Notes under the pieces: model-generated
Seen by the model: the letters and a program-made list of their open reading frames with translations, nothing else
Told to the model about the DNA's origin: nothing
The model's database searches: none
Translations under genes and position numbers: made by a program
IMG/VR virus record: IMGVR_UViG_3300031957_001610
Coordinates: 1-28,619 of that record
Reading direction: 5' to 3' (one strand)
Source of the DNA: a virus
Length of the DNA stretch: 28,619 bases
Shown: one piece after another, positions 6,525 to 19,164 of the stretch
How the letters are laid out: each line of letters opens with the position of its first letter
Numbering within the stretch: the first letter of the stretch is position 1

Positions 6525-7157
6525 TTATTTTACCCAAAGTGTTCTGTGTGGTTCAACTGATAAATTTTTAGTGGGCTCTTTTGTATAATACCAAAGAGAA
6601 ATATTTTTTCTATACCCCGATGTCACTTCACTCACACCATGATATGTATTATTATTTGTAAGAAAAAGAATACAACTGTTCAGATTGGGTGGAATAGACT
6701 TCTTTAGTTCTAAATTAGTGTTGTACATATCAAAATTTCCACCCTCACAGTCATCATTGAGATAGTAAAGTAAATTGACAGCGCGATACATTCCTAAGTC
6801 ATTATTATAGTTGAAGTCAATATGTTTTGTCAAGAAACTACCTGGTGGATGCATGAATAATCCACCACCGTAAAGATTTTGATCCGTGTATAATTTATTA
6901 ATACCTGTAATGCTTTCTATTTTTGATACAAACTCATCACTTTGTAAGTAATCAATAAAATTAGAAATAGACTTTGGCATGACAGCCGTATCAGTCAACA
7001 TTTTCTTATTGGTATATTCATTGACATAAAGTTCACCACTTGAATTCCAAACTTCAGAGTCCCAAGAAGGAAACTCATCTTTCATTTGAGTGGCATATTC
7101 TATATCAACTAAATTATCTGTAAAACCATGAGGCCATGGATCATCAATTATTTTCAT
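6525..7157 (-). CDS. 2-oxoglutarate/Fe(II)-dependent oxygenase
   Basis: 210-residue double-stranded beta-helix oxygenase. The iron-binding triad is visible: H112-x-D114 in TKHIDFNYN and H173 in NTYHGVSEV. R183 in GYRKNISLWYY would bind the 2-oxoglutarate carboxylate. Between them the RAVNLLYYLNDDCEGGNFDMYN segment is typical of prolyl-4-hydroxylase-like members. It sits in the sugar cassette between a methyltransferase and the nucleotide-sugar dehydrogenase, one base from the latter. A hydroxylation or oxidation step on the glycan or on a virion protein is possible. The substrate is unknown. Confidence 0.8.
   Translation of the reverse strand: MKIIDDPWPHGFTDNLVDIEYATQMKDEFPSWDSEVWNSSGELYVNEYTNKKMLTDTAVMPKSISNFIDYLQSDEFVSKIESITGINKLYTDQNLYGGGLFMHPPGSFLTKHIDFNYNNDLGMYRAVNLLYYLNDDCEGGNFDMYNTNLELKKSIPPNLNSCILFLTNNNTYHGVSEVTSGYRKNISLWYYTKEPTKNLSVEPHRTLWVK
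6804..6833 (-). promoter_or_regulatory. weak candidate internal promoter in the oxygenase gene
   Basis: Minus strand TTGACA (6833-6828), 18-nt spacer, TATAAT (6809-6804). It lies inside the 2OG oxygenase gene, where the HIDFNYN codons create the -10, and would read into the dehydrogenase gene 280 nt on. Both hexamers are consensus, but the location and 18-nt spacer make chance likely. Confidence 0.25.
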
Positions 7158-7927: not shown

Positions 7928-8667
7928 AGTTTGAATGTGGGGATAGGGGACATTTTATGTGCATTAAGTGCCCGAAACTTCTCAAGTGTTCTCATTCCAG
8001 GGCCTTCAGTGCCATTTTCCATGGCATCTTCAATTTGTTCGTAAGTAGCTCCGAGTTGATCTTCATCTGTTCTTCCATCATCCCACAATCCATCAGTAGG
8101 AGAAGCATTAATAATATCTTCGTTTATTCCAAGATGTTTACCAAGTTCCCATACCTCAGTCTTGTATAGATCAGCAATGGGAGCAATATCAACTCCACCA
8201 TCACCATACTTAGTGTAAAATCCTACACCATAGTCTTCAACTTTGTTTCCAGTACCAACAACAATACCATCTACAGATCCAGCAACTTGATAAAGTGTCA
8301 TCATACGCAATCTTGATCTTGTGTTTGCAAGAGCATGTGTATTTGTTCCAAAGTCTCTCATTGATTCTTTGAATTCTTTAAAAGTATCATCAAGATAAAA
8401 CTTTAGCCAAGTAACATTATCATAATTATCCATCAAATACATCGCATGAGTATCTGAAAGATGATCTTGATGCGTTGCTTGACAAATTGGCATACCCAAA
8501 ACATAAGTTGGAAGTCCAGTTTCTGCACAAAGAGTAGAGACTACAGCAGAGTCAATTCCACCAGAAATTCCAACAACTAAAGACTTTATATTGTTGTCTA
8601 TAGTGTATTTTTGGATCCAAGTAACGATGCTGGTTTCTAACTCCCAGTATTTTTCGATTCTATTCAT
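7924..8667 (-). CDS. nadE: NH3-dependent NAD+ synthetase
   Basis: 247-residue N-type ATP pyrophosphatase. The P-loop is SGGIDSA (from residue 35). NTHALANTRSRLRMMTLYQVAG, VVGTGNKVEDYGVGFYTKYGDGGVDIAPIADLYKTEVWELGKHLG and PTDGLWDDGRTDEDQLGATYEQI follow in the order of bacterial NadE. There is no glutaminase domain, so ammonia is the expected nitrogen donor. The enzyme amidates nicotinic-acid adenine dinucleotide to NAD+. It is embedded in the sugar cassette by 4-nt overlaps, two genes upstream of an NAD-using dehydrogenase. A second possible NAD-pathway protein, an NMNAT-like fold, lies far upstream at 26750-27730. Confidence 0.88.
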   Translation of the reverse strand: MNRIEKYWELETSIVTWIQKYTIDNNIKSLVVGISGGIDSAVVSTLCAETGLPTYVLGMPICQATHQDHLSDTHAMYLMDNYDNVTWLKFYLDDTFKEFKESMRDFGTNTHALANTRSRLRMMTLYQVAGSVDGIVVGTGNKVEDYGVGFYTKYGDGGVDIAPIADLYKTEVWELGKHLGINEDIINASPTDGLWDDGRTDEDQLGATYEQIEDAMENGTEGPGMRTLEKFRALNAHKMSPIPTFKL

Positions 8668-9551
8668 TGGAAATAATTTAAATAAATGAAATCTTCTGCG
8701 GTTTGAGTGTGAAGAACACGCTCATAATTGTCTTTGACTGCATCAAGATGATCATAATAATACTCTTCAGTAAGAACTTCAGAGTCAAACATTAATCCAT
8801 TTTCATCTTCTTGCATCACAATTATACCATCAATATTATAATAATTGCCGATGTCAGGAGCACCAAGATAGATGGGAATAGTTCCAGTTAGAAGACAGTC
8901 ATGAAGTTTTTCAGTAAAATATGATTCATACCTAGAGTTTTCCATAGCAAAGGAGAACATATAGTCCTTTAATGCATCTAACTTTCGTGGAATATAGTCA
9001 AATGCTTTTCCATACATATCAACTTGACCTGTATCAGCTAGTTGCTGAGCAATACCTAGACGGAACTTATGTCCATCACTCATTTCCAATCCAGAAACAC
9101 AACAAGAAACTAATTTTGATTTTTCAAAGATACCAGTCTCTTCTATAATACTTCCTTGACCAAATACAAATTTGAATTTTGGATCTAAGTCAAGGAGTTC
9201 TTTGTCATGTGTGAAAATTGCATCATATGCTTCGATGTATGGCTGTGGATTACTTTTAATCTCAGCAGCCATTGGATTATACCACCGAGGTTCAATTAAC
9301 CAAGCATATTTCTTTGCACTTACATTATCACGAAGACCCAATCTAATAAGTTGCTCAGTGTAGAAGGTCTCATCTGTACTTTCTAGATTATTGAAAGTTT
9401 TCTGAAACTGTTTCCATCCCTCATGAACCCACTCAACATGCTTCGGAAATCTATTTAAAGCTAGATATCCATTTTGAGTTCCAAGATCACATGTCCCAGT
9501 ATAACTGAAAGTGTCATCAATTAATTTAAACTGTTTCATACTTTTACCCAT
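8664..9551 (-). CDS. glycosyltransferase family 10 (fucosyltransferase-like)
   Basis: 295 residues. The family-10 C-terminal signature is plain: DYMFSFAMENSRYESYFTEKLHDCLLTGTIPIYLGAPDI (residues about 197-234), equivalent to the FxFAFENS..xDYVTEKL....G.VPVYxGxP block that binds GDP-fucose in alpha-1,3-fucosyltransferases. The N-terminal half (WLIEPRWYNPM, YDAIFTHDKELL) fits the acceptor domain. The ATG at 9551 overlaps the upstream gene by 8 nt; a second ATG at 9539 is possible. Known members use GDP-L-fucose. Next to a GDP-mannose epimerase-like gene, a related GDP-hexose donor is plausible. Confidence 0.82.
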   Translation of the reverse strand: MGKSMKQFKLIDDTFSYTGTCDLGTQNGYLALNRFPKHVEWVHEGWKQFQKTFNNLESTDETFYTEQLIRLGLRDNVSAKKYAWLIEPRWYNPMAAEIKSNPQPYIEAYDAIFTHDKELLDLDPKFKFVFGQGSIIEETGIFEKSKLVSCCVSGLEMSDGHKFRLGIAQQLADTGQVDMYGKAFDYIPRKLDALKDYMFSFAMENSRYESYFTEKLHDCLLTGTIPIYLGAPDIGNYYNIDGIIVMQEDENGLMFDSEVLTEEYYYDHLDAVKDNYERVLHTQTAEDFIYLNYFQ

Positions 9552-10215
9552 TTGATGTTTCTATTTTTTCAAAAAATGCATCTCCCCAACTACCATCTCC
9601 ACTGACAGCTGGATTTCCTACATGAACAAATCCAAATTGTTTTAGATAATCATACAGATCATCAAAATAAACTCCATTCTCATAATCATGTACAGAAAAA
9701 GTGGCTTCAGCATTGATGTATTTTACTTTTTCTAAGATTTTTTTTGCTCCAGATAGAATTAATAATTCCGAACCTTGAGTATCTATATTGATAAAGTCGA
9801 TATCAAAATCCAAATTATCTCTTTCAAACAAAGTATCTACAGTAACACTTTTTAATTCTATAGTTCCTTTATAATAAGTTTTTTCATTATATTCTGCACT
9901 TTCTCTACCTGCACTACCTGAAATTTTTTTCAATATAGAAGACATACCTCTATTATCTTGATAATGATAGCGATGAAAATCTGTGTCTTCATCATCTTTA
10001 TCTGTAACTAGTTCATTAAAAAGAATACTTTCAAAAGAATATTCTCCGTTGCTAATATTATTAACTAGTTCTTTATAAATTTCTGGATCAGCTTCTATCC
10101 AAACTACCTTTTCAAATCCCCAAGAATTATATGCGGGTGCTTCTCCACCATTATAAGCTCCGATATGCAAAACATTTTTAATAGGTTTTTTATCAATAAA
10201 TTTGGAAAGTGTCAT
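9544..10215 (-). CDS. FkbM-family SAM methyltransferase
   Basis: 223 residues. KNVLHIGAYNGGEAPAYNSWGFEKVVWIEADPEIYKEL gives the SAM glycine loop and the ribose-binding acid. FDIDFINIDTQGSELLILSGAKKILEKVKYINAEATFSVH is the strongly conserved FkbM strand 4-5 region (IDTQGxELxVLxG). Unlike the tandem pair at 2898-4174 it keeps the canonical IDxQGxE motif, so it belongs to another FkbM branch. A clear Shine-Dalgarno sequence, GAGGAA, lies about 8 nt before the ATG in the 12-nt gap after the epimerase gene. Probable sugar O-methyltransferase; acceptor unknown. Confidence 0.82.
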   Translation of the reverse strand: MTLSKFIDKKPIKNVLHIGAYNGGEAPAYNSWGFEKVVWIEADPEIYKELVNNISNGEYSFESILFNELVTDKDDEDTDFHRYHYQDNRGMSSILKKISGSAGRESAEYNEKTYYKGTIELKSVTVDTLFERDNLDFDIDFINIDTQGSELLILSGAKKILEKVKYINAEATFSVHDYENGVYFDDLYDYLKQFGFVHVGNPAVSGDGSWGDAFFEKIETSNG

Positions 10216-10227
10216 TAAAAGTATTCC

Positions 10228-11274
10228 TCAGTTTAACTTGGTTTGATTGTGAATCCATTCGTATGTTTTGCGAATACCTTCTTCAAGAGTTTGTTGATAA
10301 TCCCATCCAAGTTTCTCACGAATAAGATCATTGTTTGAGTTACGTCCACGCACACCAGTTGGTGCATTCAATTTGTATAATTTTTGAACTACCTTACCAG
10401 ATACTTTAGAAGCAATATCTACAAGTTGATTGATAGTGACCATCTCCTCAGAACCAATGTTCACAGGACCCATAAAGTCACTGTCCATCAGTCTTCGAGT
10501 TGCTTCAATGCATTCGTCAATGTACAGGAAGGAACGAGTCTGTAAGCCATCTCCCCACACCTCGACAGCTCCACCTGTCTCTGGGAGGTAAGAGACTTTA
10601 CGGCAGATTGCAGCTGGTGCCTTCTCTCTTCCACCGTCCCAGGTTCCTTCAGGACCAAAGATGTTGTGGTAGCGAGCAACCCTAACAGGAATACCGTAGT
10701 TGCGATTGTAGGCAAAGTAGAGACGCTCAGAAAAGAGTTTCTCCCATCCATATTCACTATCTGGGTCAGCTGGATATGCGGATTCTTCACGGCAATCTGG
10801 GTTATCAGGATCGAGTTGATTATGCTCTGGATACATGCAAGCAGATCCAGAATAGAAAATTTTAGTTCTGTTTCCTACTGTCTCATTAAACTTACGCTGC
10901 TCATCAAGAACATTCAAGTTGATGGTGACGGAGTTGTGCATGATGTCTGCATCATTCTCACCAGTAAAAACAAAACCTGCACCACCCATATCAGCCGCAA
11001 ACTGATAGATTTCATCAAATGGTTGCATAAACTTCTCAGCAATCTGCTGATAGAAGTTTCCAAGATATCCAGAGAAACGAATGCAACGACGAACAAAATC
11101 TACATCACGCAAATCACCCTGAATAAATTCGTTTGCCTCGGTTTCAGAAAACTCAGGACGCTTAAGATCTACACCACGCACCCAGTATCCTTCGGCACGA
11201 AGTCTCTTTACCATATGGCTACCGATAAATCCACCAGCACCTAGAACTAGTGCTGTCTTCTTGTATTCAGACAT
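10228..11274 (-). CDS. gme: GDP-mannose 3',5'-epimerase-like SDR enzyme
   Basis: 348-residue extended short-chain dehydrogenase/reductase. GAGGFIGSH (from residue 12) binds NAD, and Y175-GWE-K179 is the YxxxK catalytic pair. Many stretches match plant GDP-D-mannose 3',5'-epimerase: QFAADMGGAGF, GSACMYPEHNQL (Cys146 corresponds to the catalytic Cys), HNIFGPEGTWDGGREKAPAAICRK (Lys of GREK is the second catalytic residue), EVWGDGLQTRSFLYIDEC and GVRGRNSNNDLIREKLGW. The known enzyme converts GDP-mannose to GDP-L-galactose and GDP-L-gulose. An insertion after residue 60 is the main visible difference. It is the first gene of the sugar cassette, directly behind a sigma70-like promoter at 11301-11329. 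Confidence 0.87.
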   Translation of the reverse strand: MSEYKKTALVLGAGGFIGSHMVKRLRAEGYWVRGVDLKRPEFSETEANEFIQGDLRDVDFVRRCIRFSGYLGNFYQQIAEKFMQPFDEIYQFAADMGGAGFVFTGENDADIMHNSVTINLNVLDEQRKFNETVGNRTKIFYSGSACMYPEHNQLDPDNPDCREESAYPADPDSEYGWEKLFSERLYFAYNRNYGIPVRVARYHNIFGPEGTWDGGREKAPAAICRKVSYLPETGGAVEVWGDGLQTRSFLYIDECIEATRRLMDSDFMGPVNIGSEEMVTINQLVDIASKVSGKVVQKLYKLNAPTGVRGRNSNNDLIREKLGWDYQQTLEEGIRKTYEWIHNQTKLN

Positions 11275-11300
11275 TGAATAATTTTAATTCCTTTCTATGT

Positions 11301-11329
11301 ATCATACAAAAAAAACCGCTTGTTGTCAA
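11301..11329 (-). promoter_or_regulatory. sigma70-like promoter embedded in a terminator, drives the sugar cassette
   Basis: On the minus strand TTGACA (11329-11324), a spacer of exactly 17 nt, and TATGAT (11306-11301). The -35 hexamer lies in the loop and stem of the terminator hairpin at 11308-11335, and the spacer contains the terminator's 3' arm and T-run. The -10 box is 26 nt upstream of the epimerase ATG, leaving room for a short leader with AAGGAA. One mismatch from consensus in twelve positions. Confidence 0.7.
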
Positions 11330-11335
11330 GCGGTT
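11308..11335 (-). terminator. intrinsic terminator after the 77-aa gene
   Basis: On the minus strand AACCGCTTG, loop ACAA, CAAGCGGTT, then six more T residues: a perfect 9-bp stem with a U-tract. The TGA stop of the gene at 11326-11559 sits inside the hairpin (11328-11326), so the gene's last codons form the 5' arm. It closes a two-gene unit that begins at the promoter at 11797-11825. Confidence 0.85.
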
Positions 11336-11559
11336 ACACGATCTTTTCTGTATGCAGGCACGCCATCTGGATCTAACCAGCAAGTGTAATCATGATCTTC
11401 CATAGCAGTGAGTAGCTGCATTTGGTTATCGCATAGATACATGTCTTTGTATCTACCTGTGTAGGAATCAATCTTTTGGATCCTACAATCGGGGGACCCG
11501 TTTTCTAGAGTCCCCACTTCAACATAACGATAAGGAAAACGTTCAAGAAGAATATTCAT
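11326..11559 (-). CDS. hypothetical protein, 77 aa
   Basis: A soluble, mixed-charge protein (MNILLERFPYRYVEVG..., ending KDRVTA) with two Cys, no membrane segment and no motif I recognise. WLDPDGVPAYRKD near the C-terminus looks like a beta-hairpin. The ATG overlaps the upstream gene by 4 nt. It is the second gene of a small unit bounded by a sigma70-like promoter and an intrinsic terminator, an arrangement that fits an early-expressed accessory gene. Function unknown. Confidence 0.72.
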   Translation of the reverse strand: MNILLERFPYRYVEVGTLENGSPDCRIQKIDSYTGRYKDMYLCDNQMQLLTAMEDHDYTCWLDPDGVPAYRKDRVTA

Positions 11560-11774
11560 TTACTCATTGGTTCAAGTTCTACAGAGAGAGTATTCATAAT
11601 AATTTCATAATCTGCCCACGGTTCTCCATCTAAAGAAGCACCGTATTCATTTTGCACATAACGAACTAATTTTTTATAGAGTTTTGGATTTTTAACATCC
11701 AATAAAAAATCTCCATTGAAGGCCGCTTGGATTACTCCAAGATCTTTTTCCTTAAAACGTTCAGTGAGAGACAT
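11556..11774 (-). CDS. hypothetical protein, 72 aa
   Basis: Starts MSLTERFKEKDLGVIQAAFNG. Mostly helical and acidic, with KLYKKLVRYVQNEYGASLDGEPWADYEIIMNTLSVEL. No known motif. It is the first gene behind the sigma70-like promoter at 11797-11825 and is coupled to the next gene by a 4-nt overlap. Function unknown; small size and an early-type promoter are features seen in phage host-takeover genes, but nothing in the protein itself shows such a role. Confidence 0.7.
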   Translation of the reverse strand: MSLTERFKEKDLGVIQAAFNGDFLLDVKNPKLYKKLVRYVQNEYGASLDGEPWADYEIIMNTLSVELEPMSK

Positions 11775-14023: not shown

Positions 14024-14049
14024 AGCTTAGAATAGTCTATAGTATATAG

Positions 14050-14121
14050 AGCGAGATACCGGACTCGAACCGGTGACATTCAGCTTGGAAGGCTGACGTT
14101 CTACCACTGAACTAATCTCGC
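14050..14121 (-). tRNA. tRNA-Gly(UCC)
   Basis: Minus-strand cloverleaf: acceptor GCGAGAT pairs with ATCTCGC, D-arm GTTC..GAAC, anticodon stem TCAGC/GCTGA with loop CTTCCAA (anticodon TCC), T-arm ACCGG TTCGAGT CCGGT, discriminator T. The CCA is not encoded. It reads GGA codons. Last of three clustered tRNAs, just upstream of talC. Confidence 0.95.
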
Positions 14122-14133
14122 TTAAAAACGAAG

Positions 14134-14154
14134 TTCCACTTGTTCAAGGTGGAA
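14134..14154 (-). other. hairpin in the spacer between tRNA-Thr and tRNA-Gly
   Basis: On the minus strand TTCCACCTTG, AA, CAAGTGGAA forms a stem with one bulge, followed by CTTCG and then five T (14128-14124). It may be a tRNA-precursor processing element or a weak terminator/attenuator between the tRNAs. The U-tract starts 5 nt after the stem, so termination would be inefficient. Confidence 0.4.
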
Positions 14155-14227
14155 AGCCATTCACAGGACTTGAACCTGCGACCTGAGCTTTACAAAAGCC
14201 CTGCTCTACCAACTGAGCTAGAATGGC
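14155..14227 (-). tRNA. tRNA-Thr(UGU)
   Basis: Minus-strand cloverleaf: acceptor GCCATTC/GAATGGC, D-arm GCTCAGTTGGTAGAGC, anticodon stem GGGCT/AGCTC with loop TTTGTAA (anticodon TGT), T-arm GCAGG TTCAAGT CCTGT, discriminator T. The CCA is not encoded. It reads ACA. Confidence 0.93.
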
Positions 14228-14231
14228 GAGG

Positions 14232-14487
<256 letters not shown>

Positions 14488-16157: not shown

Positions 16158-16331
16158 CTAGTCAGGATATCCGTCATCATCATCAAAAACTTCATCATAG
16201 TCTGCCATGACAGATGGATTAAATCTGTCAGGAGTCGTATACGATTCTGGATCTGAATAGATTTCAGACTCAAGCTCTTCAATAATTTCTTTGAGTGCCA
16301 TTACAAGCACTTTAAGCTTAGCTTTGTTCAT
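16158..16331 (-). CDS. hypothetical acidic protein, 57 aa
   Basis: Begins MNKAKLKVLVMALKEIIEELESEIYSDPESY and ends MADYDEVFDDDDGYPD: a helical N-terminal half and a strongly acidic tail. The ATG at 16331 has AGAGGGGG about 5 nt upstream, one of the best ribosome binding sites in the window. A longer reading to 16388 would pass through the terminator and has no support. A sigma70-like promoter (16360-16388) lies 29 nt before the ATG. Acidic small early proteins in phages sometimes act as DNA mimics or host-factor inhibitors, but nothing here proves that. Confidence 0.72.
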   Translation of the reverse strand: MNKAKLKVLVMALKEIIEELESEIYSDPESYTTPDRFNPSVMADYDEVFDDDDGYPD

Positions 16332-16359: not shown

Positions 16360-16388
16360 ATTCTACATAAAAAAAGCGGGGCAGTCAA
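16360..16388 (-). promoter_or_regulatory. sigma70-like promoter embedded in a terminator
   Basis: Minus strand TTGACT (16388-16383), 17-nt spacer, TAGAAT (16365-16360). The -35 hexamer is exactly the hairpin loop of the terminator at 16369-16396, and the spacer holds its 3' arm and T-run. It leads to the 57-aa acidic gene. Same design as at 11301-11335. Confidence 0.62.
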
Positions 16389-16396
16389 GCCCCGCT
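16369..16396 (-). terminator. intrinsic terminator after the 900-aa virion-type gene
   Basis: Minus strand AGCGGGGC, loop TTGACT, GCCCCGCT, then a run of T: a perfect 8-bp GC-rich stem with a U-tract. It starts 10 nt after the TGA/TAA stop at 16406 and should stop late structural transcripts from entering the accessory region. Confidence 0.88.
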
Positions 16397-16405
16397 GTTA
16401 CTTAT

Positions 16406-19108
16406 TCACTTGATGGAACCTTTCCCATACTTCGCCTGAATTTGTGATCTTACAACATCCATTGCAGAAGCACCCTTACCATACTTTTTCTCCATCTCCT
16501 TTTGAGCCATGGTCTTACCGCTACCAAACTTTTTGGTATTGCTCTTAGGAGCACGACGATAATCTACATTACCATCAACACCACCACGTTCCTGACGACG
16601 ATCTCTTGCACGATCTGATGCTTCTTCGGCCACCTCACCTTCTGGTTCATAAGAGTTTCTCATAACAGCAGATGCTGAACCTGGGGATCGAAGGCCCTTT
16701 TTGTATTTGTTGAGATCTCTATTAGACGGATCAAATGATCCTACTGCAGATGCTGAACCTGGGGATCGAAGGCCCTTTTTGTATTTGTTGGGATCTCTGT
16801 TAGATTTATCCAACTCTCCTGCAACAAATTCAATCATATCATCACCTTCTTGATCATAAGATTCCATCCCGCTTATTCTATCCAACATCATTTTTCTGTC
16901 ACCAAGTCTTCCAGCCAGTCCTTTGTTTCCAGTTGGTTTTTTTATTTGCTTTTTAGCAAAAGGGTTCTTAATGTTTAGATTAGGATGACCAATGTATCCA
17001 TCTCCAGGTTTTCCACCAACAACTTCAATCATATCATCTTCTGATTCAAAACCTGCCTTTACACAGTTGTCAACTGTTTTGCCACCTTTCTTCTTGGTGC
17101 CAGCAAGTCTGTAACCTTTCCAGCAAGCTTTGCCGTCAAGTCCTTTCTCTTTTTCATCTAGTTCTGGACGATCCATAATATCTATTACTTGATCTGCAAG
17201 AATATCAAGGGCTTCACTATCCATTTCACCAAGAAGTTCGATAGCTTCTTCGCGAGTTTCTGCTTCTCCCATTACAACTAGGTACTCTTCCATACCTTCT
17301 GCAATATAGCAGAGTTCTAAAATCTCAGAAATCCATGTCTCAGACATGGTGCTGACCATGATGGATGCATCATCTACATTATCAGTATATCCTTCATAAA
17401 TTAGGAAGTTAATTAGCATTTCAAATTCACTACTACCTTCGGTAGTATTTTTCTTTCCATACTTAGATGTATGCAGTTGATAATCTGCATAGTTCTTACC
17501 TTCACCTTCAGAACGCTTGGTTCCTTTTCGTCTCTTGTCTGCCTTTGCAGAATCACGCTTTCTATCAGCGGCAGCTGCTCTTCTCATTTCAGAGTCTTGA
17601 CCCATGACTGCTTCAGTCTTGGTCTTTTTCTCCTTTTCAATACGAGCAGACATCTTTCTAATCGCATCGATGCTCATATTACCGACACCAGTGAATCCTG
17701 CCTTGGAAGGATCAGGTTGCTTCTTAGAGTCATCCTTGTATCGACCAGCAGCACGGGCAGCACGACGATTCTCATCAACCATCTCACCCTCTGGTTCAAA
17801 AGAATTGTTCTGTTGAACTAATGGCTTTCTCGGAGGAACTGTTTTAGATTGAAGGGGAGGTTGTCTCCTAAGATTTGGAGTAGTCTTATCAGTACCACCT
17901 TTGGTCATGACAGAGGTTGATGTATTCAAACCTCTACCAGTCTGTTGACCGTGAACATTCTCACCTGGCTTACGAAGTCTTCCTTGAGTGGTGTACTTGG
18001 TGTTACGGTTCCAGGGGAGAGCGTCAGTGACATTTCTCATCATTCGTCTGATATCTTCGGTCATCTCACCTTCATCAATTACGTTATCTGCGTAGTGATG
18101 GAACTCTTCGCCATGAGATCCCTCAGTAACGACAGTTACCTCAGAGATGGGAACATTGAACTCCACACCATGACTGAATAGCATGTCATAGTGACTGACA
18201 AATCCGTTCTCATCGGGCTCAGAGTGTTGTCCAAAGATGCACTCACCTTCACCCCACTGTTCGGAGCAAACTTTCTTAGCACAGTTATGCTTAGTTTTCT
18301 TTTCTTTCTTGATGCAATCTGCTTCAGCAATTGCCTCCTCTCCCATACGCCTAGCGAGTTTGTCAGATCCTCTAGAGACTGCTCTAGCAGCGCCACCAAT
18401 ACCTTTCTTGAGTCCTTTCTTGAGGAGTCTTCCTACGCTTCTCAGAGCGCCGCCTACTGCCTTACGGGTTGATCCTGCCTTAGAGGTCTCTCCAGAGGAA
18501 GAGGAGGAGGAAGACGAGGAAGAGGAAGAGGAAGAGGAAGAACTAGGTCTGTCATCTGAGGAAGTTACAGTGGCTCCACCACCGCTTCCTTTAAGACCAC
18601 GCTCTCTACCCTTTGCAAATTCAGATTTAGCACTTGATCCTGCCCGTTGAGCAACACCGGATACATATCCTGCAGCTCTCACAGCACCCTTACCTGCTGC
18701 CTTGGCACCAGCCTTAATAGCACTACCTGCTTTCTTAGCAGCAGACTTCATGCGATCCATTCTGGAAGGACCAGCAGAATCAGAAGAAGACGCTGATGCT
18801 TTCTTCATTGCAGCACCAGTTGCAAGTCTGTCTTTTGCCTGGTCTCTACGACGCTGAGTTTCTCTAGGGTCAACTCTCTCAGTAATTGTTAGTGCATCGA
18901 GAGCATCAACCATTTCGGTGATGTCTTGCTCTTCCGACATATCAATGAGGATTTCCTCCATAACTTCTTGAAGTTCATCATCACTGAGAGTATCGATAAT
19001 ACCTAACTGTGCATATTCACTTTTAGTGAAGGAAAATACTTCATTCTCAACGACCTGCATCTGTGTGTAGGTTTTCATTAATTCAAGAAACTGACTAGAA
19101 GGCTGCAT
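16406..19108 (-). CDS. large low-complexity virion-type protein, 900 aa
   Basis: Modular and mostly disordered. The helical N-terminus (LSDDELQEVMEEILIDMSEEQD) is followed by an Ala/Lys-rich amphipathic stretch (about residues 125-155), a poly-Ser tract of about 18 (near residues 190-210), a second Ala/Arg region, and a Cys-containing block (KHNCAKKVCSEQWGEGEC). Then come a SHYDMLFSHGVEFNVPISEV module, an EFEMLINFLIYEGYTDN..ASIMVSTMSETWISEIL module and a GLDGKACWKGYRLAGTKKKGGKTVDNC module. The last three recur in cyanophage structural proteins as I remember them. GLRSPGSASAV occurs twice near the end. (N/S)(S/Y/F)EPEGE(M/V) also repeats and might be a prohead-protease-type site. A late promoter box lies 22 nt before the ATG and a strong terminator follows. 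Role unknown; an internal head or other virion protein is inferred. Confidence 0.7.
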   Translation of the reverse strand: MQPSSQFLELMKTYTQMQVVENEVFSFTKSEYAQLGIIDTLSDDELQEVMEEILIDMSEEQDITEMVDALDALTITERVDPRETQRRRDQAKDRLATGAAMKKASASSSDSAGPSRMDRMKSAAKKAGSAIKAGAKAAGKGAVRAAGYVSGVAQRAGSSAKSEFAKGRERGLKGSGGGATVTSSDDRPSSSSSSSSSSSSSSSSSGETSKAGSTRKAVGGALRSVGRLLKKGLKKGIGGAARAVSRGSDKLARRMGEEAIAEADCIKKEKKTKHNCAKKVCSEQWGEGECIFGQHSEPDENGFVSHYDMLFSHGVEFNVPISEVTVVTEGSHGEEFHHYADNVIDEGEMTEDIRRMMRNVTDALPWNRNTKYTTQGRLRKPGENVHGQQTGRGLNTSTSVMTKGGTDKTTPNLRRQPPLQSKTVPPRKPLVQQNNSFEPEGEMVDENRRAARAAGRYKDDSKKQPDPSKAGFTGVGNMSIDAIRKMSARIEKEKKTKTEAVMGQDSEMRRAAAADRKRDSAKADKRRKGTKRSEGEGKNYADYQLHTSKYGKKNTTEGSSEFEMLINFLIYEGYTDNVDDASIMVSTMSETWISEILELCYIAEGMEEYLVVMGEAETREEAIELLGEMDSEALDILADQVIDIMDRPELDEKEKGLDGKACWKGYRLAGTKKKGGKTVDNCVKAGFESEDDMIEVVGGKPGDGYIGHPNLNIKNPFAKKQIKKPTGNKGLAGRLGDRKMMLDRISGMESYDQEGDDMIEFVAGELDKSNRDPNKYKKGLRSPGSASAVGSFDPSNRDLNKYKKGLRSPGSASAVMRNSYEPEGEVAEEASDRARDRRQERGGVDGNVDYRRAPKSNTKKFGSGKTMAQKEMEKKYGKGASAMDVVRSQIQAKYGKGSIK
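16668..16804 (-). repeat. 59-nt near-perfect direct repeat within the virion-type gene
   Basis: Two 59-nt units (16668-16726 and 16746-16804) differ at only two positions, with a 78-bp period (26 codons). Each encodes SNRD(P/L)NKYKKGLRSPGSASA. Recent tandem duplication in a disordered part of the protein. Confidence 0.9.
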
Positions 19109-19139: not shown

Positions 19140-19164
19140 AAAAAAGGACCCATTAAGGGTCCTT
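19140..19164 (-). terminator. intrinsic terminator at the end of the nrd block
   Basis: Minus strand AAGGACCC, loop TTAAT, GGGTCCTT, then T residues: an 8-bp stem plus U-tract. The TAA of the small Cys-rich frame falls in the loop (19155-19153). It separates the nucleotide-metabolism block from the late structural gene. Confidence 0.87.

Follow-up and report, generated by a model that had tools for sequence, protein, structure and literature searches.

A predicted sigma70-type promoter nested in a terminator hairpin ahead of the sugar cassette of a T4-like cyanophage

Composite promoter-terminators of T4-like phages have been named PeSLs (promoter early stem loops; Arbiol 2010 and Comeau 2014, as referred to in citing papers), and a role as recombination points at which gene modules are shuffled has been proposed for them. 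In the PeSLs of phages RB49 and phi1, a terminator stem-loop is joined with a sigma70-like promoter in one small intergenic unit. PeSLs have already been considered in a cyanophage, S-PM2, in which a host-like early promoter and stem-loops were named as candidates (Puxty 2015, PMC4503421).

The DNA analysed here, referred to as the window, comprises positions 1-28,619 (28,619 nucleotides) of IMG/VR virus record IMGVR_UViG_3300031957_001610, from a marine cyanobacterial virus. Its relatives at the site described below are T4-like myoviruses of the Kyanoviridae (e.g. S-T4, Bellamy and S-SM2), and its ribonucleotide reductase gene has matches of 78-86% identity in 80 viral contigs. A cluster of tRNAs (Gly-TCC, Thr-TGT and Arg-TCT; 14049-14305, minus strand) adjoins the transaldolase gene. 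A 12/12 match to the sigma70 consensus (TTGACA-18-TATAAT) is present at 6833-6804 on the minus strand, within an ORF at 6525-7157.

Anatomy of the nested elements in the window

The sugar cassette is encoded on the minus strand and begins with a gene for an NAD-dependent nucleotide-sugar epimerase (10228-11274), followed by genes for an FkbM-type methyltransferase (9544-10215) and a family 10 glycosyltransferase (8664-9551). Upstream of the epimerase gene, on the same strand, lie two small genes of unknown function, which encode proteins of 72 aa (11556-11774, PHROG 552) and 77 aa (11326-11559, PHROG 481); the former has a promoter-like site of its own (TTGACA-17-TATACT, 11825-11797). Between this pair and the epimerase gene, a terminator hairpin, AACCGCTTG-ACAA-CAAGCGGTT, with a 9-bp stem and a 4-nt loop, was identified on the minus strand at 11314-11335 by scanning, RNA folding (-12.8 kcal/mol, z -3.7) and covariation at orthologous sites. 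It is the top minus-strand terminator within the first 15 kb of the window and has the features expected of an intrinsic terminator, namely a G+C-rich RNA hairpin, compensatory changes in its stem and a T-run (TTTTTT, 11308-11313) directly after it.

The same bases carry the hexamers of a predicted promoter. A -35 hexamer, TTGACA (11324-11329), runs from the 5' arm of the hairpin into its loop, and a -10 hexamer, TATGAT (11301-11306), lies 17 nt past it. The intervening spacer (11323-11307) contains the T-run of the terminator, which is separated from the -10 hexamer by a single G at 11307. TTGACA-17-TATGAT scores 11/12, and the hexamers fall within the 16-18 nt separation of sigma70-type promoters and are conserved. 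The TGA stop codon of the 77-aa gene (11326-11328) is itself part of TTGACA. The first-pass annotation had described a hairpin with TTGACA across its 5' arm and loop followed by a T-run, TATGAT at exactly 17 nt, and the upstream TGA inside the hairpin, and all of these were confirmed on the minus strand between 11335 and 11301. Its broader proposal, that a terminator and a sigma70-type promoter share common bases, is borne out by the predicted features and by their conservation at related sites. An Rfam search of the window returned only the three tRNAs, and thus no known RNA family at the element.

Two other minus-strand hairpins in the whole window score highly, and one of them is also nested. 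The second element consists of the hairpin AGCGGGGC-TTGACT-GCCCCGCT followed by a T-run (16375-16396; scan and fold, -18.0 kcal/mol, z -5.2); its -35 hexamer, TTGACT, makes up the entire loop (16388-16383), and a -10 hexamer, TAGAAT, lies 17 nt further on (16360-16365). It is located between a gene for a 900-aa protein and a small gene of 57 aa (16158-16331, PHROG 878). The 900-aa protein (16406-19108, minus strand) contains serine-rich segments of low complexity and matches several PHROGs in part; one of these is annotated as cytidyltransferase. The third terminator (19144-19164, minus strand; scan and fold, -14.0 kcal/mol), after the nrdB region, leads directly into TATAAATA, the box of a T4-type late promoter. 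Thus, each of the three best coding-strand terminators of the window bears the next predicted promoter.

We consider it probable (about 85%) that the element ahead of the epimerase gene is a composite transcription-unit boundary, in which the terminator of the small upstream genes and the promoter of the sugar cassette occupy the same DNA. Polymerase arriving from the small genes would make the hairpin and halt in the T-run. The same DNA would serve as a sigma70-type promoter for host RNA polymerase, with the T-run inside the 17-nt spacer and the -10 hexamer right behind it. From the position of the -10 hexamer, transcription is predicted to start at 11293-11295, near 11294 and about 20 nt ahead of the epimerase ATG. 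A start at this point lies beyond the hairpin; therefore the transcript of the small genes would carry the hairpin at its 3' end, and the new transcript would lack it. For the same reason, the idea that the hairpin belongs to a regulatory leader of the sugar cassette RNA was rejected. The element would work like the nested PeSLs of vibriophages.

Conservation at orthologous epimerase sites

A hairpin together with a -10 hexamer was found before the epimerase gene in 42 loci. In 40 of these a hexamer in the hairpin is nested exactly 17 nt before the -10, the hexamers being TTGACA (20 loci), TTGCAT (7), TTTACA (5) and others; we assume that hexamers of the TTGCAT type still work as a -35. The remaining two loci (L005 and L006) have the hairpin further upstream and a separate TTGACA after it. 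Counting loci that have a hairpin and loci that do not, 85 of 87 carry the -10 hexamer. A conserved hairpin lacking the -10, the observation that the first-pass annotation had set against its own proposal, occurs in none of the cyanophage epimerase loci; two hairpins of this kind were seen, both in loci of bacterial MAGs.

In a set of 18 hairpins from this site that have identical geometry, six of the nine stem pairs show substitutions at both positions in one sequence or more (25 cells), and the covariation score was 0.535, compared with 0.221 in shuffles. Complete (100%) pairing and an invariant TTGACA in this set hold by construction, because the sequences were selected as hairpins with TTGACA, while the spread of stem sequences and the retained -10 are not products of that selection.

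The presence of the hairpin depends on the gene upstream. It was found in none of 27 loci with an epimerase-like sugar gene upstream (a family named from the sequence start GSTGFIGG or GGTGFIGG, rather than by profile search) and in 43 of 63 others (Fisher p 1.5e-10, a value that overstates the difference because related sequences are not independent). This neighbour dependence fits a terminator that may be deployed only between unrelated transcription units, as an insulator. The constant part of the site would then be the promoter of the sugar cassette; where an unrelated unit lies upstream, a hairpin would enclose the -35 of this promoter and so insulate the cassette. Upstream genes at this site are diverse (16 families among 72 loci), as are the gene boundaries at which PeSLs are found. 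In several hairpin-free loci (L003, L008, L009, L012, L017, L022, L034 and L040) the -35 often overlaps a TGA (TAT TGA C). This TGA looks like the stop codon of the upstream gene and may represent an alternative packing of promoter and gene end.

Recurrence and relation to PeSLs

Recurrence was analysed in 169 cyanophage-like contig loci with one script and fixed thresholds, a nested promoter being counted at ≥10/12 hexamer matches; the contigs are related to each other. The 2.26 Mb of cyanophage-like contigs contain 309 strong terminators, and 58 of these carry a nested promoter; in bacterial genome loci totalling 1.39 Mb, 2 of 87 do. The first-pass annotation had suggested looking in other cyanophages for hairpins with a TTGACN loop followed by a T-run and TANNNT at 17 nt. 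TTGAC lies in the loop of 44 hairpins, and 40 of them have TAnnnT exactly 17 nt on; among hairpins without TTGAC, TAnnnT is present at the same offset in 10 of 188. The reverse complement, GTCAA, was not seen in any loop among the 162 strongest hairpins. A search for the pattern with the hairpin constraint removed gave unspecific matches. Only 39 of 640 TTGAC-17-TAnnnT promoters are located in terminators, and the scan found no nested element in phages Syn9 and S-CRM01; as most cyanophage promoters lie outside hairpins, nesting is optional.

Among named phages, S-T4 carries both sites of the window with other stems, at 84486 before the epimerase gene and at 89398 before the small gene. The second site, before the PHROG 878 gene, has the same element with a different stem in S-T4 and in two contig loci (L014 and L054); few loci were reached by way of the 900-aa upstream protein, and the small downstream gene is the better query. 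Nested elements also precede hli (high light inducible) genes in Bellamy (184220, after pstS), S-SM2 (167143) and S-PM2 (124302, hli03). The upstream genes differ in all three, and the promoter therefore seems to travel with hli. The upstream stop codon falls within TTGAC in S-PM2 (124302) and in nt-1 (185638). As a general rule this does not hold, with no case among 55 nested elements of viral contigs under our ORF rule; a stop codon within the -35 is thus occasional.

The element of the window resembles PeSLs in joining a terminator stem-loop and a strong sigma70-like promoter as a unit (9-bp hairpin, T-run, 11/12 match) in a T4-like phage. The arrangement differs from that of RB49, phi1 and Aeh1, in which the promoter follows the hairpin (in RB49 and phi1 the -35 lies mostly +10 to +19 nt from it), whereas in the window the -35 is inside the hairpin. 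No nested element at ≥10/12 was found in RB49, phi1 or Aeh1, in which tandem ones are present. The vibriophages KVP40 and nt-1, on the other hand, contain 4 and 7 nested elements, respectively, with copies of similar sequence within each phage. These elements, AGGGTTGAC-NNNN-GTCAGCCCT followed by a T-run and TATTAT, are like that of the window in having TTGAC in the hairpin, the T-run in the spacer, the -10 at 17-18 nt and a location at gene boundaries, and the one at 185638 of nt-1 likewise has the TGA of the upstream gene inside TTGACA. Therefore the order of promoter and hairpin varies within the PeSL kind. Novelty in kind is not supported, given the PeSLs described in T4-like phages and the nested ones in KVP40 and nt-1. 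For the nested form in cyanophages, no description was found in the open-access literature searched, a search that did not extend to the primary PeSL papers. The candidates of S-PM2, a phage of the same family as the window virus, have promoter and stem-loops at separate places, and the nested element at 124302 before hli03 is absent from the coordinates quoted for S-PM2 (PMC4503421).

Copies within one genome also differ between the two groups of phages. The vibriophage copies are near-identical and mostly have an 18-nt spacer, while in cyanophages the stems of the copies are unrelated and the spacer is 17 nt long. Identity among copies was 84% over the core in nt-1, with common words of up to 44 nt, compared with 48% in the window and 54% in S-T4, in which the longest common words were 7-8 nt. 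Similar copies in one genome, as expected of recombination cassettes, were thus not found in the window or in S-T4. On the basis of this copy comparison, and of the scan of RB49, phi1 and Aeh1 against KVP40 and nt-1, we classify the element as a putative PeSL of nested form, to which the recombination role is not extended.

Alternative explanations and significance

Several other explanations were weighed against a composite boundary. Promoter-like matches are frequent in A+T-rich DNA (63 in 15 kb, compared with 57 expected from shuffles), and terminator and promoter-like sequence might have come to overlap by chance. However, the 17-nt spacing is kept in 40 orthologous hairpins, and when the window was shuffled 400 times with dinucleotides preserved, a single nested element arose once and two, the number in the real window, never did. 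Together with the recurrence in other contigs, these results refute chance overlap, to which we assign a negligible probability, and it was rejected. Operators are also commonly laid out as inverted repeats centred on a -35, and the hairpin could instead represent a DNA operator for a dimeric repressor. Inverted repeats that surround TTGAC and are accompanied by a -10 number 41, and ten of them have no downstream T-run, as an operator would allow. The other 31 have a T-run on the 3' side, however, and only one of the 41 has an A-run on the 5' side. In addition, the stems differ widely and covary across orthologous sites, which is not expected for the operator of one protein, and loci whose upstream gene is part of a unit of the same kind have no hairpin. 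The polarity of the T-run and the covarying stems in particular disfavour an operator, which we regard as very improbable.

Two further readings concern what the element would do in addition to bounding transcription units. A main role in recombination, with gene modules shuffled at the element as proposed for PeSLs, would be consistent with the 16 upstream families among the 72 epimerase loci and with the occurrence of the same element type before hli with three different upstream neighbours. Copies in one cyanophage genome have no long common sequence, unlike those of the vibriophages; recombination of the PeSL type is therefore not supported, and we judge it improbable. Polymerase releasing its RNA at the T-run of the proposed boundary might stay on the DNA over the promoter and restart there, a physical coupling that we hold to be unlikely but not far-fetched. 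The transcript end and start would be about 13 nt apart, and the locked 17-nt geometry would place the promoter under the terminating enzyme. There is a precedent in E. coli RNA polymerase, which in single-molecule assays is retained on DNA after intrinsic termination and re-initiates nearby (PMC6978380, PMC11347151). That precedent, however, concerns the E. coli enzyme and not a cyanobacterial polymerase, and compactness alone would yield the same shared geometry. According to the same literature, lytic phages with their own polymerase would gain little from such recycling (PMC6978380, PMC11347151). T4-like phages, however, use the host enzyme.

Terminators running into a T4-type late promoter appeared as a parallel class to the nested elements. 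Of 178 occurrences of TATAAATA in the contigs, 46 lie 3-10 nt (mostly 3-7) behind a terminator stem, compared with 0.3 expected. S-T4 has a terminator with TATAAATA at 90923, directly behind nrdB like its counterpart in the window, and T4 itself has three terminators with TATAAATA ≤10 nt from the stem, one of them between genes 35 and 36. These resemble the element of the window in packing a terminator and the next promoter together, but the late box lies behind the T-run and outside the hairpin, whereas the nested element is of the sigma70 type and is predicted to be early; termination, initiation and timing at the latter we infer from its sequence features. If the coupling described above were true, the units of a lytic cyanophage would be chained by recycled host polymerase, and the terminators that lead into late promoters would be the equivalent for late transcription.

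Nested promoter-terminators appear to be a regular part of the genomes of T4-like cyanophages, accounting for about one strong terminator in five in our sample, and they also precede host-derived photosynthesis-related genes such as hli. The promoter is constant, whereas the hairpin is present or absent according to which gene lies upstream. A hexamer in a hairpin with a -10 at 17 nt may serve as an annotation rule for transcription units of uncultured cyanophages, and the elements offer natural templates on which to study whether a polymerase, once released by a terminator, begins again at the promoter beneath it.
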